Assembly: GCA_016187925.1 (NCBI GenBank)
Contig: JACPIS010000026.1
Span: forward strand, 1 to 64,000
Direction: 5' to 3'
Origin: Opitutia bacterium
GTDB taxonomy: Bacteria > Verrucomicrobiota > Verrucomicrobiia > Opitutales > Opitutaceae
Length of the DNA: 64,000 nt
In this document: in pieces, positions 1,785-52,950 of the stretch
Numbering within the stretch: position 1 is the first letter of the stretch
How the letters are laid out: the number at the start of each line of letters is the position of its first letter
Position numbers and translations under genes: made by a program
Notes under the pieces: generated by a model
Seen by the model: the letters and a program-made list of their open reading frames with translations, nothing else
The model's database searches: none
Told to the model about the DNA's origin: nothing

Positions 1785-2309
1785 ATGCGCCTGCCGCCCT
1801 GCCCCCACCTGCCGCCCGCGCCCGCCGCGATGGACGCGGGGCACCTCACGGCGCACGGCACGGCGCGCGATGAAGCCTTCTACCTGACGGCCCTCACCTA
1901 CGGACAATATCTCTGGCAACGCGGCCTGGCCGCGCGGGCCATCCTGTGCGTCGATCGCGCGCTGGGGGCGGACTTGCGCGGCGGCGAGCCCGTGTTGCGC
2001 GATTGGCCGCTGCCCTACGCGACGCTCGGCTGGATGCTGCGGCATGTGCCGGCGGAGATTTTCATCGGCAACCCGCGCGTGCATTACCAGCACCTCGCCG
2101 ACCGGATGAACGAGCCCCGGCGCGAACAGCGCCGCTGGCGCGCGTGGGCGGCGTGGGCGATCACGCGCCGTTTCCGGCCGGAATTCGCCGCCGATCCCAA
2201 GCACGCCGTGATCGAACCGGACGAGGCGACCATCGCGCTGAAACTCACCACGCACGGCCTGCCGGGCGAAGCCACGCTCTGGCGCAACAGTTTGGAAGCG
2301 TCCCAGTGA
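1785..2309 (+). CDS. conserved protein of unknown function
   Basis: A 174-residue protein with no signal peptide or membrane segment. It is rich in Trp, Arg and Ala and has helical-looking segments (FYLTALTYGQYLWQRG, WRAWAAWAITRRFRPEF), suggesting an all-alpha fold, perhaps TPR-like. I do not recognise a named domain. The start at 1785 gives a Pro-rich leader of 15 residues; ATG at 1830 is the alternative. It is transcribed divergently from the acyltransferase and points toward the AraC gene with about 200 bases between. No function can be assigned. Confidence 0.6.
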   Translation: MRLPPCPHLPPAPAAMDAGHLTAHGTARDEAFYLTALTYGQYLWQRGLAARAILCVDRALGADLRGGEPVLRDWPLPYATLGWMLRHVPAEIFIGNPRVHYQHLADRMNEPRREQRRWRAWAAWAITRRFRPEFAADPKHAVIEPDEATIALKLTTHGLPGEATLWRNSLEASQ

Positions 2310-2518
2310 CCTCGCGCCGCACCGGACAGGTGTGTGCCGGCATCCGGCGCAGGGCATGGGGCGTTAATAGACTTGCTCCCGGACAGGCCCGGAAGTCAGG
2401 TTGCCTTTGCATTTGTCTAAGTGCTGTCAGGCGTCATAAAAACGCACCGACCCCACCCCTCCCCCGACCAAGCTGGACCCCCACCCCGGGCCGCGGACCC
2501 CGACCTACACCGCGAGCC

Positions 2519-3541
2519 ATGACCAATCTCTTTTCCGCCAAATCCCTCAGCCCGCAAAACCGCGCCGAGATGCGCGCGGTGCTCGATCAGGCCATCCGGC
2601 AGGCCGAGCGGGATCAGCTGCGGCTCAAGGTGCCGCGCGAGGTCAAGCCGGGCCCGCAGAAGCGGGGCATGCATTACCACTACCGGCCCGAGATCTTCCT
2701 CCAGATGCAGGGGCGCACGGACTTCCGGTTTCCGCGCGAGAACTTCGAGCTCGGCCCGGGCGACTTGTGCGTCATCCCCGCCGGCGTGCCGCACGGCGAA
2801 GCCGTTTACGCCGAGGCGGACCGCCCCTTCCGCAACCTCGTCGCGGGTTTCTACAACAACACGATCAGCCTGCACTTCGCCTACGAGGCCCAGCCCGGCC
2901 GGCCGGACATCGAGGTGATCGAGTTCTTCGACGCGCCCAATCTCGACGTATTCATCACGCTGGCGAACAGCCTGGCGCAGACGCATTTCATGCAGAGTCC
3001 CGCGCGCGACTCCGTGCTGAAGGGCCTGAAGATCGCCCTGCTCGGCATGTTCCGCAACATCGTGGAGACCGGCACCGGCAACCTGAACAACGACATCGGC
3101 AAGGTCTTCCAGGCGAAATGCCTCGTCCGCGAGCAATACGGCAACTCCGCCCTGAGCGTGCAAAAGATCGCCGAGATCCTCGGCTGCTCGGCCGACTACC
3201 TCTCGCACCTCTTCCACGTGGAGACGAAGGAGCGCCTCACGCACTACATCCAGCGCATCCGCATCCAGGGCGCCACGCTCGCGCTCGAGACCACGGCGCT
3301 CAACATCTCGGAGATCGCCTACGCCAGTGGCTTCGCCGACCCCGCCTACTTCGCCCGCGTCTTCAAGCAGCACAAGGGCATGACCCCGCAGGAATATCGC
3401 GTGCAGCTCGAAACCCAGCGCAACAAGCAGGAGGAGCAGCCGAAGACGGTCTATCACGACCGCCTCGACTACACCCACGGCGTGCCGAAGAAGAAAGCGG
3501 CGCCACCGGCCGAGTCGCCGACCGAGTCGGTCGGCGCGTGA
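2519..3541 (+). CDS. AraC-family transcriptional regulator with cupin domain
   Basis: A 340-residue regulator. Residues about 50-100 form a cupin-like sensor (MHYHYRPEIFLQMQG ... PGDLCVIPAGVPH) and residues about 200-298 a double helix-turn-helix AraC domain (VQKIAEILGCSADYLSHLF; ISEIAYASGFADPAYFARVFK). The C-terminus is a charged low-complexity tail. The ATG at 2519 was chosen because the longer open frame upstream has no protein-like sequence. AraC/XylS regulators with cupin sensors commonly control sugar utilisation, and the starch cluster starts 0.3 kb downstream on the other strand. It is a plausible but unproven regulator of that locus. Confidence 0.88.
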   Translation: MTNLFSAKSLSPQNRAEMRAVLDQAIRQAERDQLRLKVPREVKPGPQKRGMHYHYRPEIFLQMQGRTDFRFPRENFELGPGDLCVIPAGVPHGEAVYAEADRPFRNLVAGFYNNTISLHFAYEAQPGRPDIEVIEFFDAPNLDVFITLANSLAQTHFMQSPARDSVLKGLKIALLGMFRNIVETGTGNLNNDIGKVFQAKCLVREQYGNSALSVQKIAEILGCSADYLSHLFHVETKERLTHYIQRIRIQGATLALETTALNISEIAYASGFADPAYFARVFKQHKGMTPQEYRVQLETQRNKQEEQPKTVYHDRLDYTHGVPKKKAAPPAESPTESVGA

Positions 3542-3799: not shown

Positions 3800-5992
3800 T
3801 CAACGGTGCCTATCCCGTGAGCGCAGGCGCAGCCAGCCGACGACAGCCAAGGCCGCTACCAGCCACCAGCTGGGCGCACCGCCGCCACCGCCACCACCGC
3901 CCGAGGGCGCGCTGGGAGCCGGCGCGGGCGCCGGGGCTTTCGGCAGGGCACTGACCGACGCCGAGTCGGCGCTTTCGCCGAACGAATTGACCGCGGAGAC
4001 GGCATAGTAATACGTGGTGCCGTTGCTCACGAAGGTGTCGGTGTAGCGCGTGGTGTCAGGATTCGCGACCGTCGTGTAAGGTCCGCCGCTGACGGTGGCG
4101 CGCTTCACGTTGTAGCTGGTCGCGCCGGTCGCGGCCGTCCAACTCAACGCGACTTCGCCATTGCCCGCGGTCGCAGCCAGACCCGTCGGCGCGACGGCCG
4201 GTGAGGTGACATTCACCGAATAGACCGCATAGCCGCTCGGCGGCGCCTGCACGGTGACGACACCGCTGGCGCTGCACGCCACGCCCGCGGGCTGGACGTT
4301 TTGTCCGTTCGCATAGGAATACCAGGCATGGCTCAGCAACGTGGCGCCGCGCAACGCGGTGTCGCTCGTGGTGACCGTCGCGCTCTTCGCCGACGAAGGA
4401 TGCACGTTGATCGCCACGATGTAGCCCGGCGCGGAGGAAGTGCCGGCCTTCGTGCCGTAGACCAGCAGGTCCGGATCGCTGGTTTGCAACGGCTCGATCG
4501 ACGGCGCCCCGCCGCCGAGGGCGCCGCGCACCCAGACGAGCGCGTCGATTCCGTTGCCCGTCTGGCCGCCGAGCGTGGCGAGGTCGCGGTTGAAATAATC
4601 CGACCAGAACAGGCAGGGATAACCCTGGTACGTCAGGATGAACGCGTAGGCCAGCATCTTGTCGTTCGTGATCGTGTCGGTGTCGTGGTTGGCCACGAAC
4701 GTCACCGCATGCGCGGGATCCTTCGCCGCGTAAACACGGGTCGGATCGACCAAGGCCGCGACAGGGACGCTGCCGGCGTGGTTGAAAACATCGGCCATCG
4801 TGTAGTAGCCGGGAAAATCGAACGCCGCGGTGCCCCGGCTGTAGGTCACGTAGGCCTCCACGTTTCGGACTTCCCCGTCCCAGCATTCGAGCACGCCGAA
4901 GGCCGCGCCCGTGCCCGCGCGGAAATCCCCCACCATGGACGGCCGGAAACCCTTCACGAAATCGAAGCGCCAGCCGCCATCGAAACCGGCATTGGCGGCA
5001 TCCATCAGCCATTTGCCCCACTGGATCATGTCGTAGCGCGGCCAACCGGCGGAGTCGGGCGTATCCAGCGAGAGACAGAGATCGGGCATGTCGCCGAAGC
5101 GGCCCTCGTCGCTCCCCTCGTGCGTGGAGGGATGAAACTGGTTGTAGTGCCACGCGCACCGATTGCTCGCGACTCCGCTGAAATCCATAAACGTGCCCAT
5201 GCTGCCCAGGTTGGGATTCATTTCGCTCGCTCCGCCCGAGCGGTGGTTCAGCACGATGTCCGCCAGGCACACAATGCCCTGGGCGTGAAACGCCGCGATG
5301 GCGCCCTTCAATTCCGCCTGCGTCCCGAAATGCGTGGCCGTCGTCCCCTTCTGATTGTACGCGCCCACGTCGTAGTAATCGTAGGGATCGTAGCCCATGG
5401 AGCTGGCGCCGCTCTGGGCCTTGCTCGGTGGCGGAAACCAGATGCGATCGATGCCGTGTCCGCCACGCATGTTGCGCAACCGCCCGGCCTGCCCGGCCAT
5501 CGTGTTGTACCAGCCCGCCGGGCAGTCCCAATAAAAACCCTGCATCATCACGCGGGTCCGGCTGGCATTGGCCGGCAGGATGATCAACGGCGGCAGCGCC
5601 GCGGGTGCCGGGGCGGGTGTGACGGGAAAATTCCAGTCGGCCCGGTTGTTGTTGTCCCAAACGGCTGCGGCGGCGTCGTGAAAGACGCAGTTCACCTCGT
5701 AGGCGGCCTCGGGCACCGTGTAGGTGAACGTGTAGCGGCCGGTCGCCGCATCGCGCGTCATCGTCTGGTCGGGGCCGGCGATCTGCATCCAGCGGTTGAA
5801 CGAGCGGTAAATCTGGACCGTGCCCGCGCCCGCCAGCGGTCCACCCGCCGGGTCGTAAGTTACCGTGACGGTCTGGCCGGAGACGGGCACAGCCGGGCTG
5901 ATCGTGCAGGTCGAGGCCGCTCCGTCCGCCACCACTCCAAGCAGCAGCGCGACGAGAGACAGACATCGGCGCGCACCCGCGAGCGACCACAT
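3800..5992 (-). CDS. secreted GH13 alpha-amylase with starch-binding domain and C-terminal anchor
   Basis: A 730-residue exported enzyme starting at ATG 5992 (MWSLAGARRCLSLVALLLG signal peptide); a longer start would run into the transporter gene. Order: signal peptide; CBM25-like starch-binding domain (about 27-125, VWDNNNRADWNFPV); GH13 barrel with DIVLNH, nucleophile D344 in WRFDF, acid E369 in VLECWD and D437 in NHDTD; beta domain; fibronectin type III domain; a Ser/Gly-rich linker with eight consecutive Gly; one hydrophobic helix; a basic tail. That last tripartite end resembles GlyGly-CTERM-type sorting signals. Expected role: endo-hydrolysis of starch at the cell surface. It is the last gene of the inferred GH31-malQ-transporter-amylase run. 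Confidence 0.9.
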   Translation of the reverse strand: MWSLAGARRCLSLVALLLGVVADGAASTCTISPAVPVSGQTVTVTYDPAGGPLAGAGTVQIYRSFNRWMQIAGPDQTMTRDAATGRYTFTYTVPEAAYEVNCVFHDAAAAVWDNNNRADWNFPVTPAPAPAALPPLIILPANASRTRVMMQGFYWDCPAGWYNTMAGQAGRLRNMRGGHGIDRIWFPPPSKAQSGASSMGYDPYDYYDVGAYNQKGTTATHFGTQAELKGAIAAFHAQGIVCLADIVLNHRSGGASEMNPNLGSMGTFMDFSGVASNRCAWHYNQFHPSTHEGSDEGRFGDMPDLCLSLDTPDSAGWPRYDMIQWGKWLMDAANAGFDGGWRFDFVKGFRPSMVGDFRAGTGAAFGVLECWDGEVRNVEAYVTYSRGTAAFDFPGYYTMADVFNHAGSVPVAALVDPTRVYAAKDPAHAVTFVANHDTDTITNDKMLAYAFILTYQGYPCLFWSDYFNRDLATLGGQTGNGIDALVWVRGALGGGAPSIEPLQTSDPDLLVYGTKAGTSSAPGYIVAINVHPSSAKSATVTTSDTALRGATLLSHAWYSYANGQNVQPAGVACSASGVVTVQAPPSGYAVYSVNVTSPAVAPTGLAATAGNGEVALSWTAATGATSYNVKRATVSGGPYTTVANPDTTRYTDTFVSNGTTYYYAVSAVNSFGESADSASVSALPKAPAPAPAPSAPSGGGGGGGGAPSWWLVAALAVVGWLRLRSRDRHR

Positions 5993-6039
5993 CCTTTGAG
6001 GCAAGGAGACCGGCGTCGCCCGTCCTTGCCGGTCCGGGT

Positions 6040-7407
6040 TCACGCCGCCGCTGGCTTCGTTGCCCCGCCCTCGGCTGGTACCAGCGCGAGTGCGGCCGCG
6101 GCCACGAGCATGCATACGCCACCCGCCATGACGGCGTGGACGAGATTACCATGCAGGAAGTTCTTCACGAACGGACCAAAGAAGAGTGCCGCGAGGATCT
6201 CCGGCAGCACGATGAAGAAATTGAAGATGCCCATGTAGACGCCCATGCGGGCCGAAGGCAGCGCGCCGGCGAGGATGGCATACGGCATCGAGAGGATCGA
6301 CGCCCAGGCGACGCCGCCGAGGGCGAGTGCCGCGAGCAACAGATAGCGCTGCTCCTCGCCGTGGATAAAGCCGACCGCCAGCAGGCCGATCGCGCCCACC
6401 GTGAGGCAGACGCCGTGAATCAGACGGCGGTCGGCCCGGCGGGCCGCCGCCATCAGGGCAAAGGCGGCCAGGAACGTCACGGCATCCTTCACGGCGTAGC
6501 AGACGCCCGCCCACTCCGCGCCGCGCTTGAACAGGTCGGACGAGGGATCGTTGCTGCCGAAGATCACCGGCACGGCGTTCGAGAAATGCAGCCACATGCA
6601 GAACAGCCCGAGCCAGGTGAAGAACTGCACGAGCGCCAGCCGGCGCATCGTGCCGGGCATGTGCACGAGTGCATCGGGGATTTCCTTCAGCAGGTGCGCG
6701 AGGCCGCCGCTCTCGGCTTTCTTGCGGCGGAACTCCTCCAGGTTGTCCGGCGGATTTTCCTTCGACGAGATGACGGTCCAGAGGACGGCGCTGAGGAACG
6801 CCACGGCGCCGACGTAGAACGAGATTTTGACGTTGGTCGGCAAGGCGTTGGCGCCGTCCGCCTCGCTGCTCACCTGAAACCAGTTGCGCAACATGTAGGG
6901 CATCATGCCCGCGACCACCGCGCCGACGCCGATGAAGAAGCTCTGCATCGCGAAGCCCATGCCGCGCTGCTCCTCGGGCAGCTTGTCGGCCACGAAGGCG
7001 CGGAACGGCTCCATCGAGACGTTGATGGACGCATCGAGCACCCAGAGCAGGCCGGCGGCCATGTAGAACTTCGGCAAATGCGGGATGAGCCACTCGGCGA
7101 GCGAGCCGGAGTTCGGCATCAGCAGCAGCGCGAGCGAGCTGAGGATCGCGCCGACGAGGAAATACGGCCGGCGCCGGCCGAGCGGTCCCCAGGTCCGGTC
7201 GCTCATCGCGCCGATGAGCGGCTGCACGATGAAGCCCGTGAGCGGCGCGGCGAGCCAGAGCTTGGCGATCTGGTCGTCGGCGGCGCCGAGGTATTTGTAG
7301 ATCGGGCTCATGTTCGCCATCTGCAGACCCCAGCCGAATTGGATGCCGAGAAAGCCGAAGCTCATGTTCCAGATGGCCGGCAGGGAGAGGGGTCGCGGGG
7401 TGCTCAT
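6040..7407 (-). CDS. MFS sugar transporter, SLC45/GPH-like (maltose/sucrose type)
   Basis: A 455-residue membrane protein with about 12 hydrophobic segments. The N-terminal [20 protein letters not shown] and the loop motif [18 protein letters not shown] are typical of the SLC45/GPH sugar-proton symporters found beside bacterial maltodextrin genes. It probably imports maltose or short maltodextrins across the inner membrane. Its start is 10 bases after the malQ stop and its stop is 47 bases before the amylase start, so co-transcription is likely. Exact substrate is inferred from the neighbours. Confidence 0.87.
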
Positions 7408-7417
7408 GGGGTGAAGC

Positions 7418-8986
7418 TCAATGTTTCAGGGGCTCGCTGTATTCGACCAGGGCGCGGTCGCCACAGCGGTCGTAGAGTCTGATCCACTCCCGCAACGTAG
7501 CCAGCTTTTCTCCGTTCAGTCCGGCCAGTTGCTGTGCCGAAAAGCGCCACTGCCAATTGCCCCCGGAGGTGCCGGGGCGGTTGAAGGTCGCCCCCGCCGG
7601 CAGGTCCAGCAGGTCCTGCACGGGGATCACGGCCAGACGGGAGACAGTGGACAGGACGTGCCGGATAATCGGCCAGGCCGAGCGGCTGCCGCCAAGATGG
7701 AAATACGCGTCGATCTGCGCCGACGACGCGCCGGAGAGGCTCTCGAGCCAGCCGCGGGTGGTGATGTTGTCGTGCGTGCCCGTGTAGGCGACGCTGTCGG
7801 GCGGGTAGAAATGCGGCAGGTTGACGTTGTGCGCATCGTGGCCGTAGGCGAACTGCACGATCTTCATGCCGGGCAGGCCGGCCTTGCGGCGCAGTTCGAC
7901 GACGTCGGGGCCGATGTAGCCGAGGTCCTCGGCGATGATGCGCGCCTCGGGCAGTGCGTCGCTCACGACCTTGAAGAAAGCCGCGCCGGGGCCCTTGCGC
8001 CACCGTCCGCCACAGGCGTCGGTCGCGCCGGCCGGGATTTCCCAATAGGTGTCGAAACCGCGGAAGTGGTCGAGGCGGATGATGTCGTAGAGCTCGAAGG
8101 CCGCCTTCAGGCGGTCGATCCACCACGTGTAGCCCGTGCGCTGCAGGTGCTCCCAGTCGTAGAGCGGATTGCCCCACAGCTGCCCCTGCGCGGAGAAATA
8201 ATCCGGCGGCACGCCGGCGACCACCAGCGGCTGGCCCTGGGGATCGAGGCGGAAGACCGCGCGGTTCTGCCAGGTATCGGCACTGTCGAGCGCCACGAAG
8301 ATCGGCACGTCACCGATGACGCCCACGCCGCGCTCCTGCGCGTAGCGACGGAGCCGGCGCCACTGGCCGAAGAAAAGGTATTGGTAGAAGGCGTGGCGCT
8401 CGGCGTCGCGCTTCGCGGAGGCCGGGAGGGCCGCGCCGAGGCCCGGGCTCCACGTGCGGTACTGCTCGGGCCACATCGTCCACGGCCAGCCGCCGAAATG
8501 ATTCTTCAGCGCCATGAACTGCGTAAACGGCACCAGCCAGCTCTCCTCCTCCCGACGGAAATCGGCGAACGAACCCAGTCCGTCGACCTGGTCGGCCTTG
8601 GCCGTGGCGAACGCATCGTGCGCCTTGGCGAGCACGCCCCAGAAGGTCTCGTAGAGCCGGCCGTAATCGACCGTGTCCGCCGGCAGCTTGCGCAACCCGG
8701 CCACGTCGGCCTTCGTGAGGAAGCCGTCGGCGATCAACTCACCGAGATCGATGAAATACGGGTTGCCCGCCCGTCCCGAGAAAAGCTGGTAAGGCGAATC
8801 ACCGTAGCCGGTGGGACCGATCGGGCAGATCTGCCAGTAGCGCACGCCGGCCTCGCTGAGGAAATCGACGAAGCTCCGGGCGCCGCGGCCGAGATTGCCG
8901 ATACCGTATTCGCCCGGCAGTGTGCTGAGGTGCGCCAGCACGCCCGCCGTGCGGGTGTTCAACCAAGAGGTGGCCTTTGCTGCCAT
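7418..8986 (-). CDS. malQ: 4-alpha-glucanotransferase (GH77)
   Basis: A 522-residue amylomaltase, which transfers alpha-1,4-glucan segments between maltodextrins and releases glucose in the cytoplasm. GH77 features: N-terminal GVLAHLSTLPGEYGIGNLG, nucleophile D306 in RLDHFRGF, acid E353 in IIAEDLGYIGPD and D406 in GTHDN. The ATG at 8986 gives the usual family start; the frame continues upstream into GH31 coding sequence. It starts 14 bases after the GH31 stop and ends 10 bases before the transporter start. There is no signal peptide, consistent with action after import. Confidence 0.95.
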   Translation of the reverse strand: MAAKATSWLNTRTAGVLAHLSTLPGEYGIGNLGRGARSFVDFLSEAGVRYWQICPIGPTGYGDSPYQLFSGRAGNPYFIDLGELIADGFLTKADVAGLRKLPADTVDYGRLYETFWGVLAKAHDAFATAKADQVDGLGSFADFRREEESWLVPFTQFMALKNHFGGWPWTMWPEQYRTWSPGLGAALPASAKRDAERHAFYQYLFFGQWRRLRRYAQERGVGVIGDVPIFVALDSADTWQNRAVFRLDPQGQPLVVAGVPPDYFSAQGQLWGNPLYDWEHLQRTGYTWWIDRLKAAFELYDIIRLDHFRGFDTYWEIPAGATDACGGRWRKGPGAAFFKVVSDALPEARIIAEDLGYIGPDVVELRRKAGLPGMKIVQFAYGHDAHNVNLPHFYPPDSVAYTGTHDNITTRGWLESLSGASSAQIDAYFHLGGSRSAWPIIRHVLSTVSRLAVIPVQDLLDLPAGATFNRPGTSGGNWQWRFSAQQLAGLNGEKLATLREWIRLYDRCGDRALVEYSEPLKH

Positions 8987-9000
8987 GGGAGGGTGGGCTT

Positions 9001-11544
9001 TCAACGCAGCCGGATTTCGTGTGGTCGACCGTCGTCGACGAGGCGCAAGACGACGGTCCGCTCGTCCAGACGGTGCCAGCCGGGTCCGGTGGAGCCGGCG
9101 GGAGTTGGGGACAGTTCTGTGCCGTCCAGGTGCACCGTGGAGCAAGCCGGCAGGGCGTGAAGCTGCAGCTCGAAATTGCGGGCCGCGGGGCGATAGGCAC
9201 CCACGGGGGCTTCCAAGACGACGACCGTGGTGTCGTCCTCGCGGAAACTGCGGAGTTGTGTGCGCCGGCTCTGGCCGGAGAGGTAGGCCGGACTGAGGCC
9301 GTCGTCCTCGTAGAGCGAGCCGGCGGCGCGGCCCTCGGCATCGGGATAGACGCCGAAGCGCAGTGGATTCCACGGCTTCTCGCCCGTATGGCTCATGGGC
9401 TCGGTCGAGGGAATAATGCTGCCGCCGCGCACGTAGAGCGGCAGGTGGTCGAGGGGCACCTTCTCCGTGATGGTCTGTCCGCCGGGCACGGCGGCACCGG
9501 TCCAGTAGTTGAACCAGAGGCCGGCGGGCAGATAGAGATCGCGCTCGCGCTGCGCGGCGCGGGTGACGGGGGCGGCGAGCAGGGCGTCACCGACCATGAA
9601 CTCGTCGTCGATGGTGGTGGTGTTCTCGTCGTCCTGGAAATTGAGGACCAAGGGGCGGAAGAGCGGCACGCCCGTGCGGTGGGCCTCCTCGATGGTCGTG
9701 TAGAGGAAGGGCAGCAGCGCGTAGCGGAGCTTGATGAACTTGCGGACGATGTCCTCGTAATGGCGCCCGAAGCGCCACGGCTCCTTGTCGTAGGTGTCGA
9801 TGGCGGAGTGGTTGCGGAAGAACGGCGAGAACGCCGCGATCTGATACGAGCGGGCGAGCAGTTCGCCGTCGCCGCGGCCGATGAAGCCGGGGATGTCGGC
9901 GCCGACGAAGGTCTCGCCGCTGAGCCCGAGCGAGGCGAACATCGGGACGTTGAGCGCGAGCGCATCGAAGGTGGCGTTGTTGTCGCCCGTCCACTTGACG
10001 GCGTAGCGCTGGATGCCGGCGTAGCCGGCGCGGGTGATGACGAAGGGGCGGCGGTCGGGCTGGAGGCTCTGCAGGCCCTCGTAGGTGGCGCGGGCCATGT
10101 TCAGCGCGAAAGTGTTCCGCATGCCGTTGTAGGGGGTGTGCTGGCCGAGGTCGTCGAAGCGGATGTTTTCGTGGCGCTTGCCGGTGGGATCGAGGAAGTC
10201 GGCCGGCTCGTTCATGTCGGTCCAGATGCCGGCGATGCCGACGTCGGTGAGCGCGCGGTGTTGTTCGCCCCACCAGCGGCGGGCGGCTTCCTTCGTGTAG
10301 TCGACGAAGACGGCCTTGCCGGGCCAGACCTCGCCGACGTAGACGGACCCGTCGGCCTGGCGGAGGAAGTAATCCTTCGCGGCGCCTTCGTCGTAGACGG
10401 AGTAGCGCGCGGGGGCGGCGGCCGCGGGGGCGGCAGCGGGTGACGTGTTCGGCGGGCCCAGCGGTCCCGCCCTACCTTCCGCTGCCCGGCCGTCGGGCTC
10501 GTGCTTCACGCCGGGGTCAATGATGGTGACGACGCGGATACCTTTTTCGGCGAGGCGGCGGGTCAGACCGGCGGGGTCGGGGAAACGGGTCTTGTCCCAG
10601 GTGAAGACGCGGTAGCCGTCCATGTAGTGGATGTCGAGGTAGAGGACGTCGAGCGGCAGGTCATGGGCGCGGTATTGCTCGGCGATGTGCTCGACGAGTT
10701 TGTCGGGGTAATAGCTGTAGCGGCTCTGCTGGTGGCCGAGCGACCAGAGGGGCGGCAACGGGATGCGGCCGGTGAGCTCGGTGTAGCGGCTGACGACCTT
10801 CTTGAGCGAGGGGCCGGCGAAGAAATAGTAGTTCAGCTCACCGCCCGCGGCGGAGTATTCGACGGCCTCCTGCGTGAGGTGACCGAACTCGAAGGTGGAG
10901 CGCCAGGCGTTGTCGTAGAAGAGGCCGTAGGCGGTGCCGTGCTCGAGGCCGAGGTAGAACGGGATGCTCTGGTAGATCGGATCGGTGCCTTCGACGTAGC
11001 CGGGGGTGTCGGAGGTCCAGAGTTCGAACCGGCCGCGGCGGCGGTCGAGGCGGGCGGCCTTCTCGCCGAGGCCGTAGAAATGCTCTTCGTAGCCGGGCCG
11101 CTTGGCGGCGGCCACGCGGCCGGACCGAGGGTCGCGCGCCATGGGGCGCGCATCGGCGCTGAGGACGCGGCCGGTGGCGGCGTCGCGAAATTCAATGAGG
11201 AGCGGGTCGCGGGTGACGACGACTTTCAGCTCCGTGGTCGTGAGCGTGAGGGTGGCGGCGTCCTCGGCGATCTGGAAGGGCGCGGCGGGCCAGTCGGTCT
11301 GGGCGACAGCCCAGGAATGATCGAGTGCCGGCGGCTGGCCGGCGAACACGGTGCGCACCCGGATCAAATCCGGCGCGAGGACCGTGAGCTGGAGGGAATC
11401 GCCGCCCGCACAGGTGAGTTCGACGCCGCGGTCGCGGCGGGACACGAGGGTGACGGCTCCGGCCGGGCGGAGCCCGGACCAGTCGAGCGCCAGCGCCGGG
11501 GTCAGCAACCCCAGCAGCGCGAGCAATGAAACGTATTTACGCAC
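9001..11544 (-). CDS. GH31 alpha-glucosidase, exported
   Basis: An 847-residue enzyme with a clear signal peptide (MRKYVSLLALLGLLTPALA). N-terminal beta-sandwich, then the GH31 barrel with nucleophile about D443 in WTDMNEP and acid/base about D521 in WTGDNNA. Such enzymes release glucose from the non-reducing ends of maltodextrins; here probably in the periplasm. Residues about 348-385 are a low-complexity Gly/Pro/Ala insertion between the DPGVKHEP strand and ARYSVYDEG. It is encoded partly by a palindromic repeat, listed separately. The gene follows the TonB receptor after a strong hairpin and heads the minus-strand run to the amylase. Confidence 0.93.
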   Translation of the reverse strand: MRKYVSLLALLGLLTPALALDWSGLRPAGAVTLVSRRDRGVELTCAGGDSLQLTVLAPDLIRVRTVFAGQPPALDHSWAVAQTDWPAAPFQIAEDAATLTLTTTELKVVVTRDPLLIEFRDAATGRVLSADARPMARDPRSGRVAAAKRPGYEEHFYGLGEKAARLDRRRGRFELWTSDTPGYVEGTDPIYQSIPFYLGLEHGTAYGLFYDNAWRSTFEFGHLTQEAVEYSAAGGELNYYFFAGPSLKKVVSRYTELTGRIPLPPLWSLGHQQSRYSYYPDKLVEHIAEQYRAHDLPLDVLYLDIHYMDGYRVFTWDKTRFPDPAGLTRRLAEKGIRVVTIIDPGVKHEPDGRAAEGRAGPLGPPNTSPAAAPAAAAPARYSVYDEGAAKDYFLRQADGSVYVGEVWPGKAVFVDYTKEAARRWWGEQHRALTDVGIAGIWTDMNEPADFLDPTGKRHENIRFDDLGQHTPYNGMRNTFALNMARATYEGLQSLQPDRRPFVITRAGYAGIQRYAVKWTGDNNATFDALALNVPMFASLGLSGETFVGADIPGFIGRGDGELLARSYQIAAFSPFFRNHSAIDTYDKEPWRFGRHYEDIVRKFIKLRYALLPFLYTTIEEAHRTGVPLFRPLVLNFQDDENTTTIDDEFMVGDALLAAPVTRAAQRERDLYLPAGLWFNYWTGAAVPGGQTITEKVPLDHLPLYVRGGSIIPSTEPMSHTGEKPWNPLRFGVYPDAEGRAAGSLYEDDGLSPAYLSGQSRRTQLRSFREDDTTVVVLEAPVGAYRPAARNFELQLHALPACSTVHLDGTELSPTPAGSTGPGWHRLDERTVVLRLVDDGRPHEIRLR
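10440..10500. repeat. palindromic REP-like insertion inside the GH31 gene
   Basis: GGCGGG (10451-10456) and CCCGCC (10466-10471) flank CCCAGCGGT, followed by CTACCTTCC. Translated in the gene frame it gives GRAGPLGPP, a stretch unlike its GH31 surroundings and next to Ala-rich codons. It looks like a dispersed intergenic repeat that has entered a coding region in frame. Confidence 0.5.
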
Positions 11545-11660: not shown

Positions 11661-14471
11661 TCAGAACTTGTACGATGCGCCGATCGAGTAGGTGGCGCCG
11701 TACTTGTGGTAGTCCTGCACGAGACGCGTGTCCGGGCCGGAAGCGGCGAACAGCGGCTCATTGTTCAGGTTATAGCCCTGCGCGATCAGAGTCAGACCCT
11801 TGAGACTGCCCTTGTGGAACGCGTAGCTGACCTGAGCGTCGATATTCGTCTCGGCCTGCAGATTGCGGTAGTTCACACCGCGCGGACCGAAGGTCGAGAT
11901 GTCGCCGCGGAAGTCGGAGCGATAGCGGGCGCTGACGCGGGCCGCGAAACCGCTCTTGGCTTCGTAGTAGAACGTGGCCGAAGACACGCGATCCGACAGG
12001 CCGGGCAGCGGCTGGGACGGATTGCTCGGGTCGGGCTGGATCGAGCTCTTGAGGAACGAGGTGTTGCCGATGAAGCCGAAGCCCTTGAGCATCGGGGTGA
12101 TCATCTCACCCGCGATCGACAGGGTGAACTCGATACCGCGAACGTAGCCACCGTCGCCGTTGGCCGGAGCGTCGGAGCGACCGGTGAAGATCGCGGGCGT
12201 GGCGCCAGGATTACCGGGGGCAATGCCCGTGGGATAACCGACGAAGCTGACGATCTGCGTCTTGTTGAAGGTATAGGAAGTCAGCTGCTTGTTGAAGCCG
12301 GCGACCGCCCAGTAGCCCTTGCTGTCCTTGAAGTAGTGTTCGATGGACAGGTCGACCGAGTTGGCCCGGGTGGGTTCGATCCTCGGATTGCCACCGCTAC
12401 GGGACCAAGGACCGTTGAGCGGATCCGTGGAGCTCGCCAGCGTCTGGTTATAGTTGAACGTGTTGCCGGCGCGCATGTCGATCATGCGCGGACGGGCCAG
12501 CTGACGGGCGGCGCTGAAGCGCACGAGCGTCTGGTCGGTGACGTGGAACACGAGGTTCAGCGCGGGCACGAAGTCAGTGTATTTGTGGCTTTCGTGGACC
12601 GCGACGATCTCGTTGGCGCCGATCGCCTGTCCGGTGCTGCTCTGCTCGGTATTGACGATCTGAGCACCGATGTTGCCGGTGACGGGCACCGAACCGAGCT
12701 TGTGGTCGATGTCGAGATTGACGTAACCGTTCCAGATCTTCTCGGTCACCTCGAAGTTGTTCGCCCGGAGGGCCGGGTTGAGATTGGGCTTGGTCTCGTA
12801 GAAGCCGCTGTTGAAGAGTGCCAGCGGGTCATAGCTGTATTGGTTGCCCATGCCGATGAAGGACAGGTCGGTGAGACCGACGGAGGCCGGAAGCGGGGCG
12901 CTGGTGGCGCCGTTCTTGAAGCCGAGGAAGAAGCCTTCCGTGCCGCCGGGGCCGAGGTCGAATTCATACTTGGAGCGGCGCTTGGCGGTGAGGCCCGCCT
13001 CGAACTTGCTGAAGAAACCCGACAGCTCGTGCTGGGTCTTGAGCGTGTACTGGCTGATGAGGTCGCGGGCATACGGGCCCTTGACGAAACCGGCCTGGCC
13101 GCCAGGGAACTGGTCGTTGGCCCAGCCTTGCGGGCTCTGGAGGCGCATCAGATTACCGTCAGAGTAGTCGAGCAGGTGGCTGAACGTCGCGCCCGCACCG
13201 GTACCGTGCAGCGTGTAGGTGAGGGTCTCGGGCGTACCAACCTGGTTGGAGGCATAGCCGGAGTAGGTCTCGAGCACGAGATCGCGGCGCTTGACGCGCG
13301 AGTAGCTGAGGTCGAGGTCGGTTTTCCAACCGTTCTTGTTGCCGAGCTCGAGGCGCCAGCCGCCGGAGAAGAGATGGTCGTTGCGCTTGACGATGTCGTT
13401 ACGGACGACGCCGAAGACGTTCTTAAAGGTGCCCTGCGTGATCAGGCCGTTGCTCTCGGTGAAACCGGGCTGCAGCTGGGCCGAGCTCCACCAGAGCGGA
13501 ATCTCGATGCCACGGAGCAACTGGGTCTCCTCGAAATCGGAGTAGAAGAGGTCGATCGTGGAGTGGACGTTCTCGCTCGGGGCCAACTCGATGACGGCCG
13601 TGTGTCCGTCGCGGATGATCTCGCTGGAACGGACGAAGGGCTTCGCACCGCCGAGCACGAAGGGCTGGCTGGCGCTGGTGCCGGAATCGACGTTGGGGTA
13701 ACCCCAGGCGTTCCACTGCTCGCCCTGACCGGGGCGGTCGGAATGGGAGAAGCCGTAAGCGATGCCCACCTTGCCGTCGGCGAACTGATCGACATAGGTG
13801 AAGGTCTCGCGGTTGCCCGTGTCCTTGGAGCCGGCGTTGAGCGCGCCCATGCTGTTCCACTCGTAGAAAGCGTTGGCGGCGATGACGCGGCGACCCTGGC
13901 TGAGGGGGCGCACCGTCTGCATGTTGATGGTGCCGGCCAGACCCTGGCTGATGAGCGAAGCGTCCGTGGCCTTGTAAACCGTGACACCGCTCAGCAGTTC
14001 GGCGGGGTACTGGTCGTACTCGACGGAGCGGTTGGCGTTGGTGCTCACTTGCTCGCGGCCATTGAGCAGACCCACGCTGTAATCACCCTCGAGACCGCGG
14101 ATGACGATGGCTTGGGCGCGGCCGTTGAGGCGCTGCGTGGCCAGACCGGGCAGGCGGGTGAGTGACTCGGCGATGCTGATGTCGGGCAGCTTGCCGATGT
14201 CCTCGGCCGCGATGACTTCGGCGATCAGCGTTTGCTTTTGCTTGGTTTCCGCAGCGGCCGCCAAGCTGCCGGCGAAGCCGGCGGTGACCTTGAAGGTATC
14301 CAAGACCACGACTTTGTCGGAGGCATTGTCCTTCTTCTTGTCCTGCTCGGGATCCGGATTGGCGGAGGCCTGGGCGAACGCCGAAAGGGCCGGCTGGGTG
14401 AGCAGCAGGCCGGTGGCCAGTCCTCGGAGGAGGTACCGGCGCACGGTATCAGTTATTAGGTGGGTGTGCAT
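11661..14471 (-). CDS. TonB-dependent receptor, carbohydrate-uptake type
   Basis: A 936-residue outer-membrane receptor starting at ATG 14471 with signal peptide (LLRGLATGLLLTQPALSAFAQ). After a TonB-box-like region (VVVLDTFKVTAG) comes the plug (AEDIGKLPDISIAESLTRLPG, QAIVIRGLEGDYS), then a long beta-barrel ending in YKF, the aromatic C-terminus needed for outer-membrane insertion. The plug pattern fits the Xanthomonas/Caudobacter-type family that takes up oligosaccharides without a SusD partner. Genes around it point to maltodextrin import. It is divergent from the GH13-esterase fusion across a 417-base spacer. Confidence 0.93.
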   Translation of the reverse strand: MHTHLITDTVRRYLLRGLATGLLLTQPALSAFAQASANPDPEQDKKKDNASDKVVVLDTFKVTAGFAGSLAAAAETKQKQTLIAEVIAAEDIGKLPDISIAESLTRLPGLATQRLNGRAQAIVIRGLEGDYSVGLLNGREQVSTNANRSVEYDQYPAELLSGVTVYKATDASLISQGLAGTINMQTVRPLSQGRRVIAANAFYEWNSMGALNAGSKDTGNRETFTYVDQFADGKVGIAYGFSHSDRPGQGEQWNAWGYPNVDSGTSASQPFVLGGAKPFVRSSEIIRDGHTAVIELAPSENVHSTIDLFYSDFEETQLLRGIEIPLWWSSAQLQPGFTESNGLITQGTFKNVFGVVRNDIVKRNDHLFSGGWRLELGNKNGWKTDLDLSYSRVKRRDLVLETYSGYASNQVGTPETLTYTLHGTGAGATFSHLLDYSDGNLMRLQSPQGWANDQFPGGQAGFVKGPYARDLISQYTLKTQHELSGFFSKFEAGLTAKRRSKYEFDLGPGGTEGFFLGFKNGATSAPLPASVGLTDLSFIGMGNQYSYDPLALFNSGFYETKPNLNPALRANNFEVTEKIWNGYVNLDIDHKLGSVPVTGNIGAQIVNTEQSSTGQAIGANEIVAVHESHKYTDFVPALNLVFHVTDQTLVRFSAARQLARPRMIDMRAGNTFNYNQTLASSTDPLNGPWSRSGGNPRIEPTRANSVDLSIEHYFKDSKGYWAVAGFNKQLTSYTFNKTQIVSFVGYPTGIAPGNPGATPAIFTGRSDAPANGDGGYVRGIEFTLSIAGEMITPMLKGFGFIGNTSFLKSSIQPDPSNPSQPLPGLSDRVSSATFYYEAKSGFAARVSARYRSDFRGDISTFGPRGVNYRNLQAETNIDAQVSYAFHKGSLKGLTLIAQGYNLNNEPLFAASGPDTRLVQDYHKYGATYSIGASYKF

Positions 14472-14888
14472 GATGTTTCGGGGAGAGTCGAAAACCGGCC
14501 ATCGCGGCCAGAAATAGCAGGGGGAAAGTGTGGGGTGATGCCGGTCGGAAGCAGAGGGGGAACTCCGGCGGCGGGCCAAATCTGAGTGCCGCGGTTGCGC
14601 GCGGCGACCTGCAAACCGCTCAGAAAACCGAGATGACTCCGAAAAGTCTTAGGTTCGGGACGCGTTCGCGCGGAGCGGTTCCTCAGAATTTCATTTGGTC
14701 AATTTCTCGATTTTTCAGAGGAGAAACCACTCTTCCCCCTTCCCCGTCGCTTCGCTGCGCGAGGCCGCAGCAGTTCCAAGTTGGCTCCGGATGGGTGGAC
14801 TCAACCTAGGTTTTTTCCCGGCCTTGCAAGACTTCTCCCGCGTGACCCGTTTGACCGCGCGCCCTCGCCTCGCATCCTCTTACAGCCT
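14472..14888. promoter_or_regulatory. divergent regulatory region between receptor and GH13-esterase
   Basis: There is no gene in this 417-base stretch, so it must carry promoters for both flanking genes. It is locally AT-richer than the rest (TTTCATTTGGTCAATTTC near 14690). Half-site-like AACCGCTCAGA near 14617 and AGCGGTTCCTCAGA near 14677 could be operator elements, but the match is loose and no operator can be claimed. Confidence 0.4.
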
Positions 14889-17800
14889 ATGCCCCCTGTT
14901 ATCCGCCGTTTCTACCCCTTCCTCGTCGGCGTGGTTGCCGCCGTTGCCGTCCGAGCCGAGTCCGTCACTCCCGTCAGCGTCCCGCGTTTCACGCATCCCG
15001 GTGCCGGCCAGACCATCTATATCCTCATGCCCGACCGCTTCGCTAACGGCAGCAGGGACAACGACACCGGGCATCTGCCCGGCGGCCCCGAGGAAAACGG
15101 CTTCGATCCCACCCGCATCGGTTACTACCATGGCGGCGACTTCATCGGGCTGACCGAGAAGCTCGATTACATCAAGGGACTGAACGTCTCCACCGTCTGG
15201 ACCACTCCGCCGTACAAGAACAACCCCGTCCAGCCCCAAGACCGCTCCGCGGGCTACCACGGGTATTGGCCGGTCGACTTCCTGAACGTCGATCCGCATC
15301 TCGGCACCAACGACGAATACCGCGAGTTCATCCGCCAGGCCCACGCCCGCGGCCTCCATGTTTACCTCGACATCGTGGTCAACCACACCGGCGACATCAT
15401 CAAATACGCCGGCGGCAACTACGCCTACGTCGACACCAAGACCACGCCCACGCGCGATGCCGCCGGTCACCCGTTCGACGAGCGCGCCGTCGCCTTCAAC
15501 GGCCTCAACGACCCCGCCGCCTTCCCCACCCTGTCCGCCGAGCACAGCTTTCCTTACGTGCCCGTCCTGGCGCCCGGTCAGGAGCATCTCAAGAACCCCG
15601 CGTGGCTCAACGACGTCACGCTCTACCACAACCGCGGCAACAGCTCTTTCACCGGCGAAAGCGCCGTGCTGGGGGATTTCGTCGGCCTCGACGACATCAT
15701 GACGGAGCACCCGCGCGTCGTCCGCGGTTTCATCGACATTTTCGGCCAATGGCTCGGCTGGGGCGTCGACGGTTTCCGCATCGACACCATGCGCCACGCC
15801 GGCGCCGCCTTCTGGCAGGCCTTCAACCCCGCCATCCGCGCCCAAGCCCGCGGCCTCGGCCGTCCCGACTTTATCCAATTCGGCGAAGTCATGAACGAAG
15901 CCGGCGACGTCGCCTACCTCAGCGAGTTTTCCACCGGCACCATGCCCGCCGACTCCACCACCGACTTCGCCTTCGCGTTCGCCGCGCGCAAATACGTCTC
16001 CCAAGGCGGCCCCGCCGCCGCCCTCGATGAATTCTTCTTCCGCGACGACTACTACACCGACCACGACAGCAACGTCCACTCGACCATCACGCTCCTCGGC
16101 AACTACGACATCGGCCGCTGGGGCTACTTCCTCCTCCAGGACAACCCGGGCGCCTCCCTCTACCAGATCGCCGACCTCGCGCGCCTCGGCCACGGCCTGA
16201 TGTATCTCTCGCGCGGCATGCCGGTGCTCCACTACGGTGACGAGCAGGGCATGCTCGGCGCGGGCGGCAACGACCAGCAGGCACGCGAAGACATGTTCGC
16301 CCCGCAGGCACCCGTCTACCGGGACGCCAAGCTTCTCGCCACCACGCGCACCGGCGCCGACGACAAATTCGATCCGACGCACCCGTTCTACCACTTCTTC
16401 GGCCAACTCGGCGCACTCCGGCAACACCACGCCGCCCTCCGCACCGGCGCCATGCTCCTGCGCCCGACCGCCGAGCCCGGCCTCTTCGCCTTCTCCCGTA
16501 TCGAACGCGGCGAACACGTCGAGTACCTCGCCGTCTTCAACAACTCCCGCACCGCCACGCTCACCGCCAGCGTCCCCACGAGCCAGCCGGCCGGCGCGGT
16601 GCTCGCCCCGCTCTTCGACTCCCGCCACCCCGAGGCCGTCGGCGGCGACCGCCTCGCCGCGGATGCGGCCGGCACCGTGCGCGTGACGCTCGCCCCGCTG
16701 CAATTCGCGCTCTGGCGCGCGGAGGCGGCGCTGCCCGTGCCGGCGACGGCCCCGCAGATCGCGCTCGTCACGCCCGCCGCCGGCGCCGCGCTCACCTTCA
16801 ACTCGCGCGAGGTCGACAACATCGTCTTTCCGAGCCGCCGCGAGATCCGCGCCGAGGTCACCGGCAACGACGGCCTGGCCGAGGTGACGTTTGCCCTGAC
16901 CCGCTCGTCGCGCCCCGGCCAATACGAATTGCTCGGCACCGACGACGCTGCGCCCTACCGCGTGCTCTGGACGCCGCCCGCCGATCTCGCACCGGGCGAG
17001 GAAATCTCCTTCGTCGCCACGGTGAACGACCTCCGGGGCCACCGCACCGCCGCGCGGGTCGACCACGTCACCATCGCTCCGGGCAAGGCCGTTTTCGGCA
17101 TCCCGGGTTCGCAGACGCCCCGGCTCACGGCCTCCGCCCCCGCCTCCGTCACAGTCGCAGCCGGCGCTCCGCTTTCGCTCTCGGCGCAGGCCGAAGGCAC
17201 CGGCCCGCTCGAATACCAGTGGCTGCACGACGGCGAGAATATCCCCGGCGCCACTGCCGCAACCTACACTGTGCCGGAGGCGGCGGCCGCGCACGCCGGG
17301 CAGTATCGTGTGCTCGTGCACAATCTCGCCGGCACCACGCTCGGCTCCGAGACCACGGTCACCGTCACCGGAGCCGGCCGCATCGTGAAGCACCCCTCCT
17401 TCCCCTCGCAGTTCATCGCGGCGCGCAACGTCGACGTGTGGCTGCCGCCGGGCTACGACGCCAACTCGGGCGAACGCTACCCCGTCGTCTACCTGCACGA
17501 CGGGCAGAACATCTTCGACCCGGCCACCAGCTACGGCGGCGTCCCGTGGTCCGTGGACACCGCGATGCTCCGCCTCATCGCGGCGGGCAAGACCCGCGGC
17601 GCCATCATCGTCGGCGTCTGGAACAACGGCGAGCAACGCCTCGCCGAATACATGCCCCGCAAGGCCGTCACCGGCGACACGCTCCTGCTCTACCCCGGCG
17701 GACCGACCCTTGCCACCCACACGATCAAGTCCGACGGCTACCTCGAGTTTCTCGTCCGGGAGTTGAAGCCGTTCATCGACCGCACCTATCGCACCCTGCC

Positions 17801-18194
17801 CGACCGCGAGCACACCTCGGTCATGGGCTCGAGCATGGGCGGGCTCATCTCCGCCTACGCGCTCCTGGAATACCCGGACGTGTTCGGCGGCGCCGGCTGC
17901 GTCTCGACCCACTGGCCCGTCGGCGAAGGATGTGTCGTCGATTACATCGCGAAGCACTTGCCTGCGCCCGGCACGCACAAGATCTACTACGACTTCGGCA
18001 CCGCCACGCTCGACGCCCTCTACGAGCCCTTCCAGCTGCGCGTCGACGCCCTCATGCGCGCCGCTGGCTACACCGCCGGCCGCGACTGGCTCACCAAAAA
18101 ATTTCCCGGCGCCGAGCACTCGGAAAAATCCTGGCGCGTCCGCGTCGACCAGCCGCTGGAGTTCCTGCTCGCGCCCTTGCCCGCCAAATCGTGA
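14889..18194 (+). CDS. exported GH13 amylase-like / Ig-like / esterase fusion
   Basis: A 1101-residue multidomain protein. Signal peptide (FYPFLVGVVAAVAVRA), GH13 domain (about 30-640) with DIVVNHTGD, nucleophile D299 in GFRIDTM and acid E333 in FGEVMNEAG. At the fourth GH13 motif the usual NHD is NYD (Y406, D407). Then a beta-sandwich (about 660-770), an Ig-like domain (about 775-850, YQWLHDGENIPGAT ... HAGQYRVLV), and an alpha/beta-hydrolase of the PF00756 putative-esterase type (about 855-1101) with YLHDGQN and the nucleophile elbow GSSMGG (Ser about 982). The combination suggests removal of ester groups from a decorated alpha-glucan or maltodextrin ester. The substrate is unknown. Confidence 0.88.
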   Translation: MPPVIRRFYPFLVGVVAAVAVRAESVTPVSVPRFTHPGAGQTIYILMPDRFANGSRDNDTGHLPGGPEENGFDPTRIGYYHGGDFIGLTEKLDYIKGLNVSTVWTTPPYKNNPVQPQDRSAGYHGYWPVDFLNVDPHLGTNDEYREFIRQAHARGLHVYLDIVVNHTGDIIKYAGGNYAYVDTKTTPTRDAAGHPFDERAVAFNGLNDPAAFPTLSAEHSFPYVPVLAPGQEHLKNPAWLNDVTLYHNRGNSSFTGESAVLGDFVGLDDIMTEHPRVVRGFIDIFGQWLGWGVDGFRIDTMRHAGAAFWQAFNPAIRAQARGLGRPDFIQFGEVMNEAGDVAYLSEFSTGTMPADSTTDFAFAFAARKYVSQGGPAAALDEFFFRDDYYTDHDSNVHSTITLLGNYDIGRWGYFLLQDNPGASLYQIADLARLGHGLMYLSRGMPVLHYGDEQGMLGAGGNDQQAREDMFAPQAPVYRDAKLLATTRTGADDKFDPTHPFYHFFGQLGALRQHHAALRTGAMLLRPTAEPGLFAFSRIERGEHVEYLAVFNNSRTATLTASVPTSQPAGAVLAPLFDSRHPEAVGGDRLAADAAGTVRVTLAPLQFALWRAEAALPVPATAPQIALVTPAAGAALTFNSREVDNIVFPSRREIRAEVTGNDGLAEVTFALTRSSRPGQYELLGTDDAAPYRVLWTPPADLAPGEEISFVATVNDLRGHRTAARVDHVTIAPGKAVFGIPGSQTPRLTASAPASVTVAAGAPLSLSAQAEGTGPLEYQWLHDGENIPGATAATYTVPEAAAAHAGQYRVLVHNLAGTTLGSETTVTVTGAGRIVKHPSFPSQFIAARNVDVWLPPGYDANSGERYPVVYLHDGQNIFDPATSYGGVPWSVDTAMLRLIAAGKTRGAIIVGVWNNGEQRLAEYMPRKAVTGDTLLLYPGGPTLATHTIKSDGYLEFLVRELKPFIDRTYRTLPDREHTSVMGSSMGGLISAYALLEYPDVFGGAGCVSTHWPVGEGCVVDYIAKHLPAPGTHKIYYDFGTATLDALYEPFQLRVDALMRAAGYTAGRDWLTKKFPGAEHSEKSWRVRVDQPLEFLLAPLPAKS

Positions 18195-18224: not shown

Positions 18225-18251
18225 AGGCCGGAACGTAAGTCGTTCCGGCCT
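18225..18251 (-). terminator. bidirectional hairpin terminator
   Basis: AGGCCGGAACG and CGTTCCGGCCT pair perfectly around TAAGT. On the minus strand a TTTTT run follows directly, terminating the tRNA-Asp transcript; on the plus strand it is followed by AATTATAAA and may end the fusion gene transcript. Confidence 0.85.
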
Positions 18252-18262
18252 AATTATAAAAC

Positions 18263-18339
18263 TGGCGGGATGGACGGGACTCGAACCCGCGACCTTCTGC
18301 GTGACAGGCAGACGCTCTAACCAGCTGAGCTACCACCCC
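18263..18339 (-). tRNA. tRNA-Asp (anticodon GTC)
   Basis: Complete minus-strand cloverleaf: acceptor GGGGTGG with CCATCCC, D-arm AGCTCAGCTGGTTAGAGC, anticodon stem TCTGC/GCAGA around CTGTCAC (anticodon GTC), T-arm CGGGTTCGAGTCCCG, and encoded CCA at 18263-18265. Confidence 0.95.

Positions 18340-50220: not shown

Positions 50221-50224
<4 letters not shown>
48806..50224 (+). CDS. type II NADH dehydrogenase (NDH-2)
   Basis: A 472-residue FAD protein with two dinucleotide motifs, ILGGGFGGLYAALEL at the start and VAGGGFAGVETMG in the middle, the FAD motif GVWAVGDCA, and the membrane-associating C-terminal region SGFLAWWMWRTIYLSKLPRLEKK ending with WTLDLFFPKDFVQYL. It oxidises NADH and reduces quinone without pumping protons. 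A 40-residue extra tail is present. Its start and stop both overlap neighbouring genes (ATGA), so it is translationally coupled to GH133 and the glucosidase. Confidence 0.9.

Positions 50225-52950
<2,726 letters not shown>

Follow-up and report, generated by a model that had tools for sequence, protein, structure and literature searches.

Loss of the region IV histidine and a change at the end of strand beta8 in a GH13 protein fused to a predicted esterase in Opitutaceae

The histidine of conserved region IV is among the best kept residues of glycoside hydrolase family 13 (GH13), and its role in catalysis has been probed mostly by laboratory mutants. The residue lies at subsite −1, contacts the sugar and helps to stabilise the transition state. 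Can a natural GH13 enzyme lose it and go on working, and does a fused esterase have any part in such a loss? Both questions are raised by a gene in a 64,000-nucleotide stretch of an Opitutaceae genome (positions 1 to 64,000 of the forward strand of contig JACPIS010000026.1, GenBank assembly GCA_016187925.1; hereafter the window). A single uninterrupted frame, from an ATG at 14889 to 18194 on the plus strand, encodes 1101 amino acids and joins a GH13 domain to immunoglobulin (Ig)-like modules and an esterase domain, with Asn-Tyr-Asp (NYD) in region IV in place of Asn-His-Asp (NHD).

Our comparison of this gene with its relatives points, with moderate confidence, to a working but retuned alpha-glucan enzyme joined to a labile CE1-type esterase in a putative maltodextrin locus of Opitutaceae. 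In a sub-lineage of seven genomes, His 406 of region IV has been replaced by Tyr, and in six of the seven Tyr 448 at the end of strand beta8 has become His, together with changes on or near beta6, beta7, beta8 and beta1. A first-pass annotation of the window, made from the sequence alone, had noted the first of these changes. The partner change at 448 was not part of it, and it is the change at 448 that deserves experiment.

Domain layout and the exchange at residues 406 and 448

The annotation had described an exported one-chain protein with GH13, Ig-like and PF00756-type esterase parts, the last with the motif GSSMGG. This layout is borne out by the intact frame and by Pfam matches, with export and the cleavage site predicted from an N-terminal sequence that has no lipobox cysteine. 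Alignment likewise places D299, E333, Y406 (in N405-Y406-D407) and S982 where they had been assigned. An AlphaFold2 model of the whole protein (mean predicted local distance difference test score 90.4, predicted template modelling score 0.87) was used together with the profiles to delimit the following parts.

14889–18194 (+): whole gene, with signal peptide, GH13 domain, two Ig-like domains and PF00756 esterase (translation, Pfam, AlphaFold2)
14889–14957 (+): predicted N-terminal signal peptide, about residues 1–23 (MPPVIRRFYPFLVGVVAAVAVRA), read from the sequence; helix 5–19 in the model
15024–16295 (+): GH13 catalytic (beta/alpha)8 barrel, residues 46–469 (Pfam Alpha-amylase, PF00128, 169 bits, cut-off 22; fold match)
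15783–15785 (+): nucleophile D299 (Asp codon GAC in 7 of 7 NYD rows)
15885–15887 (+): acid/base E333 (alignment, codons)
16104–16106 (+): Y406, just past beta7 in conserved region IV, at the place of His in NHD
16107–16109 (+): D407, third acid of the triad, retained (alignment, codons)
16230–16232 (+): H448, in place of a near-invariant Tyr of conserved region VII, final residue of beta8
16326–16721 (+): all-beta domain C after the barrel, about residues 480–611 (secondary structure of the model; structural alignments reach about 613)
16752–16997 (+): Ig-like domain Big_7, residues 622–703 (Pfam, 34.6 bits, cut-off 24.1)
17118–17324 (+): second Ig-like domain, residues 744–812 (Ig_3, 26.6 bits against a cut-off of 30; beta-rich in the model)
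17364–18182 (+): PF00756/CE1-type alpha/beta hydrolase domain, about residues 826–1098 (Pfam PF00756 Esterase at 846–1008, 79.4 bits, cut-off 22)
17832–17834 (+): S982, predicted esterase nucleophile in GSSMGG (Ser in all 28 esterase rows)
17991–17993 (+): D1035, predicted triad Asp (Asp in all 28 esterase rows)
18117–18119 (+): H1077, predicted triad His (His in all 28 esterase rows)

The last three residues make up a predicted Ser-Asp-His triad, assigned from the motif and from conservation; a 29th row across these columns, L121, has other residues there and no esterase match (handles in L denote loci, those in G genomes).

Among 81 distinct GH13 rows from the relatives that were fetched, including distant ones, region IV reads NHD in 73, NYD in seven and SHD in one. 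These rows are the ones aligned over 405–407, made distinct by the stretch around the motif, and the counts describe relatives of this protein; within that scope, the annotation's view of NYD as uncommon holds. Residue 448 over the same rows is Tyr in 74, His in six and Phe in one, and His is found there in none of the 73 NHD rows. In the tree described below, all 55 NHD rows have His at 406 and Tyr at 448, whereas all seven NYD rows have Tyr at 406 and six of them His (CAC) at 448. D299, E333 and D407 are retained throughout the NYD rows, and so is the region I His.

The two positions belong to a larger set of changes. When the seven NYD rows were compared with 47 nearer and eight more distant NHD rows, ten of 284 conserved columns proved to be fixed differently in the NYD clade (47, 48, 112, 307, 358, 402, 406, 411, 444 and 448). 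Seven of them are on or within four residues of beta6 (358), beta7 (402, 406), beta8 (444, 448) and beta1 (47, 48), and column 411 is the start of the helix after beta7. The stretches around beta7 and beta8 (400–415 and 440–452), which were set after the changed columns had been seen, contain five of the ten changes yet account for 23 conserved columns out of 284 (Fisher p = 0.0004). Four hand-chosen control clades had 0, 1, 1 and 3 such columns anywhere.

In the model, beta7 comprises 400–402, with 406 following its end, and beta8 comprises 444–448, ending at 448. Residues 406 and 448 are thus placed by the model at the catalytic face of neighbouring strands, and their side chains would lie close to each other. 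Counting from the region VII glycine on the human sequence, we take Arg337 of human salivary amylase to be aligned with V446 of the window protein. On this count 448, two positions further on, would point the same way, towards the inside of the barrel. This arginine is the third chloride ligand of animal amylases and is assigned to beta8, region VII, in PMC8467227.

The protein of genome G375 (locus L142) has Tyr at both 406 and 448 and Met at 444. This combination makes it probable that 406 and 444 were the first to change, ahead of 448 and 411.

Origin of NYD, selection and the coming and going of the esterase

A maximum-likelihood tree built from 62 GH13 domains places the NYD rows together in one clade (support 100/100), so that they require a single change. 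The tree left out identical domains, fragments with fewer than 450 aligned positions, and L025, L027, L046 and L125 (fragments or duplicates). The codon at 406 is TAC in all seven NYD rows and CAC or CAT in all 55 other rows. Recurrence in seven genomes of one clade agrees with the annotation in treating NYD as a genuine change with the catalytic residues kept. A sequencing error or a pseudogene was considered as its source and rejected, given the seven genomes, the open frames and the low ratio of nonsynonymous to synonymous substitution (omega). Under a codon model, omega in the NYD clade is 0.054 for the GH13 part, 0.089 for the Ig part and 0.079 for the esterase part; the GH13 value falls within the range of 0.033–0.075 found for the GH13 domains of seven hand-chosen NHD sets, of which two overlap (for the Ig part, set B_181_386 had no shared columns and gave no value).

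The amylase part has matches in 49 of 252 Opitutaceae genomes (E ≤ 1e-100). Named relatives with at least 54% identity belong to Opitutus, Lacunisphaera and Candidatus Didemnitutus, and the others at this level are bins labelled Opitutaceae, Opitutia, Opitutae or Verrucomicrobia. In a phylum-wide sample, nine of 387 genomes carry the amylase (E ≤ 1e-60), all from one order. Amylase and esterase form one gene in 27 of the 252 Opitutaceae genomes, a count that includes G202 and G310, where the match comes in two pieces of one frame, and G317, where the gene lies in two frames. Six of these fusions are NYD and 21 are NHD. The split gene of G317 (L109, C80:281-3524) consists of two overlapping frames and reflects a frameshift or an assembly fault, and the NYD fusion L129 (G202, C12:616755-620147) has 99 extra in-frame bases where residues 585 and 586 of the query would adjoin, close to the C-terminal edge of domain C.

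The esterase part alone, used as a query, matches 36 of the 252 genomes (E ≤ 1e-60), in several of them as a stand-alone gene. Among 30 stretches with an unfused amylase, in which at least one locus is represented twice (L060 and L142), three carry a related esterase as a gene of its own, and the remaining 27 showed no trace of an esterase at E ≤ 0.01. In L113 (G417), a separate esterase gene at 7452–8549 (−), 61% identical, is convergent with the adjoining unfused amylase at 4871–7426 (+); this gene pair is an unfused counterpart of the window fusion. In the open literature, the titles and abstracts among the matches listed mention no GH13–esterase fusion of this kind and no His/Tyr exchange; the word NYD was not among the search terms.

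Mapped on the tree, the distribution of the fused esterase (25 rows with it, 37 without) takes 13 changes to explain, and well supported branches force at least 11 of these; gains and losses are counted together. The basal NYD row, L142, has no esterase. Because the NYD rows are a single clade whose basal row lacks the esterase, within a tree that needs 11–13 esterase changes, NYD on this sequence evidence arose once, inside a group that gains or loses the esterase easily. A link between NYD and the esterase was therefore rejected, as 21 of 27 fusions are NHD, one NYD protein has no esterase and NYD has a single origin. The suggestion of the first-pass annotation that NYD and the fusion were one adaptation is likewise not supported.

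The locus and what the protein may do

The fusion gene is preceded by a divergent gene for a TonB-dependent receptor, confirmed by a TIGR01782 match, and by further genes on the minus strand.

11661–14579 (−): divergent TonB-dependent receptor (TIGR01782, 498 bits, cut-off 310; true start probably inside the frame)
9001–11544 (−): GH31 enzyme (nearest alpha-glucosidase MalA, 537 bits, below the cut-off of 800)
7418–9373 (−): GH77 4-alpha-glucanotransferase, MalQ (TIGR00217, 330 bits, cut-off 206; longest frame, true start later)
6040–7407 (−): major facilitator superfamily (MFS) sugar transporter
3800–6115 (−): second GH13 alpha-amylase with a normal NHD and a hydrophobic export-like segment (PRK09441-like, below cut-off; longest frame)
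1946–3541 (+): AraC-type regulator (longest frame)

With these genes alongside it, the locus reads as one for maltodextrin utilisation. The second amylase has weak CBM53 and fn3 matches and may back up the NYD enzyme. Across 40 hand-chosen stretches with a relative of the amylase gene, a TonB receptor is found in at least 31, MalQ in at least 26, an MFS transporter in at least 16, GH31 in at least 10 and an AraC-type regulator in at least eight, all lower limits, since flank lengths differ. Just downstream of the fusion gene lies a tRNA-Asp gene (18263–18339, −), and at 18225–18251 there is a terminator-like hairpin, of a kind no commoner here than in shuffled sequence. Further along the window, two long genes on opposite strands, at 37126–39810 (−) and 50221–52950 (+), share an alike N-terminal stretch and are apparent paralogues about 10 kb apart.

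Of the 40 stretches, 24 carry both a TonB receptor and MalQ, and among these GH31 is present in nine of 11 fused but only one of 13 unfused loci (Fisher p = 0.0005, kinship ignored). The GH31 gene lies between the receptor and MalQ in the window and also in L127, L128, L129, L131, L132, L135, L136, L137 and L139. The sole unfused locus with GH31 is that of G375, which is NYD without the esterase and could be a case of recent loss; the fused loci without GH31 are L126 (G154) and L133 (G395). The idea that the locus is identical with or without the esterase was dropped, GH31 being much commoner beside the fusion. From this co-occurrence, the esterase and GH31 may act on one class of substrate.

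In the reading that we favour, the protein would be an exported alpha-amylase-type enzyme of this locus whose GH13 barrel would cleave alpha-1,4-glucan chains or both cleave and transfer them; the pieces would be taken up through the TonB receptor, with GH31, MalQ and the MFS transporter completing their use. Retaining cleavage of alpha-1,4-glucans is our best guess because D299, E333, D407 and other conserved barrel residues are kept. With the His of region IV positioned at subsite −1, its change to Tyr at 406 should cost activity unless repaired. The NYD lineage may thus have undergone a compensated rebuild of the wall around this subsite, in which retaining catalysis by D299, E333 and D407 would stay and the rate, the pH response or the balance of hydrolysis and transfer would be altered. 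H448 would be a candidate repair of, or replacement for, the lost His, and the CE1-type domain would be a separate, evolutionarily labile serine esterase that tends to accompany GH31. We infer the catalytic activity, the altered kinetics and the esterase activity of the window protein. A precedent is BmaN1, a GH13 protein described in PMC5347038 as active despite an altered region IV. That the role of the region IV His has passed to the new His at the end of beta8, with Tyr in the old place and by way of a Tyr/Tyr intermediate as in G375, is a bolder proposal, which we make only tentatively.

Several observations weigh against the favoured reading. The stems of the NYD clade (0.094, and 0.11 for its six-row part) are longer than the four control stems (0.037–0.063), and part of the excess of fixed changes is therefore expected. 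H448 is not needed for the retention of NYD, since basal L142 is Tyr/Tyr. The esterase is not a random extra, since it accompanies GH31. Other exported-looking NHD amylases are present in the window's genome, G154 and G375, and a loss of activity could therefore be tolerated. Moreover, Nei-Gojobori dN/dS values are 0.24–0.53 for the 21 NYD pairs against 0.05–0.19 for 11 hand-chosen NHD pairs, which could mean relaxed constraint in the NYD clade; the codon model gives no such sign, and we weigh it above the pairwise values because it takes account of the strong codon bias in these genomes. By either measure, the substitution pattern places the NYD-clade GH13 domain under purifying selection.

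An alternative that we regard as unlikely is that the GH13 domain of the NYD clade is weak or inactive and mainly holds alpha-glucan for the esterase, the cutting being left to an NHD paralogue and the second amylase. The changed His is a subsite −1 residue important for catalysis, G196, G202 and G311 have NHD paralogues, as does the window's genome, and the higher pairwise dN/dS would fit. However, all three catalytic acids are kept and omega is as low as 0.054. Furthermore, G154 and G375 have no match at E ≤ 1e-100 other than the NYD protein, and G375 retains NYD although it has no esterase and no remnant of one was found in its stretch.

In the proposal of the first-pass annotation, the two activities are suited to an alpha-glucan that carries esters or other decorations, and NYD adapts the GH13 site to it. 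The half of this proposal that rested on pairing NYD with the fusion is not supported, given the NHD majority among the fusions and the NYD protein without an esterase. The GH31 counts are what a matched module would give, so that some matched substrate may exist, and the fused esterase with its intact predicted triad and the three related separate esterase genes near unfused amylases are in keeping with it. On the other side, the 13 changes in esterase presence among 62 rows, the retention of NYD both in L126, which lacks GH31, and in L142, which lacks the esterase, and the distant likeness of the nearest solved esterases, which are feruloyl/CE1 enzymes, make the proposal as a whole quite improbable. 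An equally doubtful possibility is a further shift of the NYD enzymes, to transglycosylation or another alpha-glucosidic linkage, for which the changed columns on or beside four adjacent strands (47, 48, 358, 402, 406, 444 and 448) and the glucanotransferases (CldA, CGTases) among the close structural neighbours could be cited, but plain alpha-amylases reach equal or better Z scores among the same neighbours and the locus already has a GH77 glucanotransferase.

A retuned but working enzyme is thus the reading with which we proceed. Its interest lies in a natural series within one bacterial family, from His/Tyr (common) through Tyr/Tyr (G375) to Tyr/His (six genomes), with the acids intact and purifying selection throughout, which offers a direct test of losing and replacing the region IV His. 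If true, the relocation of this His would mean that a catalytic-shell residue has moved to a new site in nature, within one of the best-studied enzyme families. The esterase result matters less: it describes a labile accessory domain that accompanies GH31 and cautions against taking NYD and the fusion as one adaptation. The GH13–Ig–esterase layout is known in one bacterial family, and the exchange at 406 and 448 is found in a small sub-lineage of it.

Comparison with known GH13 and CE1 systems

The predicted model has the (beta/alpha)8 barrel and domain C of GH13, and the Asp nucleophile, Glu acid/base and Asp stabiliser of the family are present as D299, E333 and D407. Region IV departs from the family pattern in reading NYD, and the assignment to GH13 stands because profile, fold and triad agree; according to PMC11239784, NHD closing region IV is typical of most GH13 subfamilies and not strictly defining. 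The curated cut-off of the NCBIfam model for the alpha-amylase MalS (PRK09505) was not reached, the best score being 116 bits against 790. Membership of the PF00756/CE1 type follows from the profile score above cut-off and the predicted Ser-Asp-His triad.

The amylase part of the model aligns with 5a2c at a VIA-align Z of 35.8 (440 residues over model residues 35–613, root-mean-square deviation 2.4 angstrom) and with TAKA-amylase (6taa) at Z 32.4 over 446 residues; such matches span mainly residues 31–616, so that the Ig and esterase parts were hardly compared by fold. The Anoxybacillus/Geobacillus-type alpha-amylases 5a2a, 5a2c and 4e2o have a like barrel, domain C (Z 35.6–35.8) and triad at 27–29% identity in the structural alignments, and 43wj, the best PDB match by sequence (E 2.2e-41), also has a like triad. 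Unlike the window protein, 43wj, 5a2b and 5a2a have a region IV that reads NHD and a Tyr at the region VII position in their alignments.

The closest comparison is with the NHD homologues of Opitutaceae, which are 63–70% identical over the match, have the same GH13 and Ig layout and adjoin a TonB receptor. Of these, the fusions of G268, G181 and G396 carry the same esterase, whereas the paralogue in the window's own genome (C44:292914, L002) does not, and all differ from the window protein in having NHD at 405–407 and Tyr at 448 instead of NYD and His. At about 43–45% identity, related GH13 domains with NHD are found in Chloroflexota (L072) and in other families of Opitutales (L021–L023), with a PUD domain as C-terminal partner (in L072 also X25 and pullulanase domains) in place of Ig and esterase. 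Within this GH13 group, different C-terminal partners are found.

On the esterase side, the CE1/PF00756 feruloyl-type enzymes 7b5v, 6rzn and 1jjf share the alpha/beta hydrolase type, the GxSMGG motif and the predicted Ser-Asp-His triad, but those in the PDB are distant from the window esterase (best E 4.2e-12), which is fused to an amylase. Finally, BmaN1 resembles the window protein in having a natural change at region IV of a GH13 protein. However, as described in PMC5347038, BmaN1 changes the acids themselves (Lys202 and His294 for the nucleophile and the stabiliser Asp), whereas the window protein has D299 and D407 in these places, keeps all three acids and alters only the His before D407.

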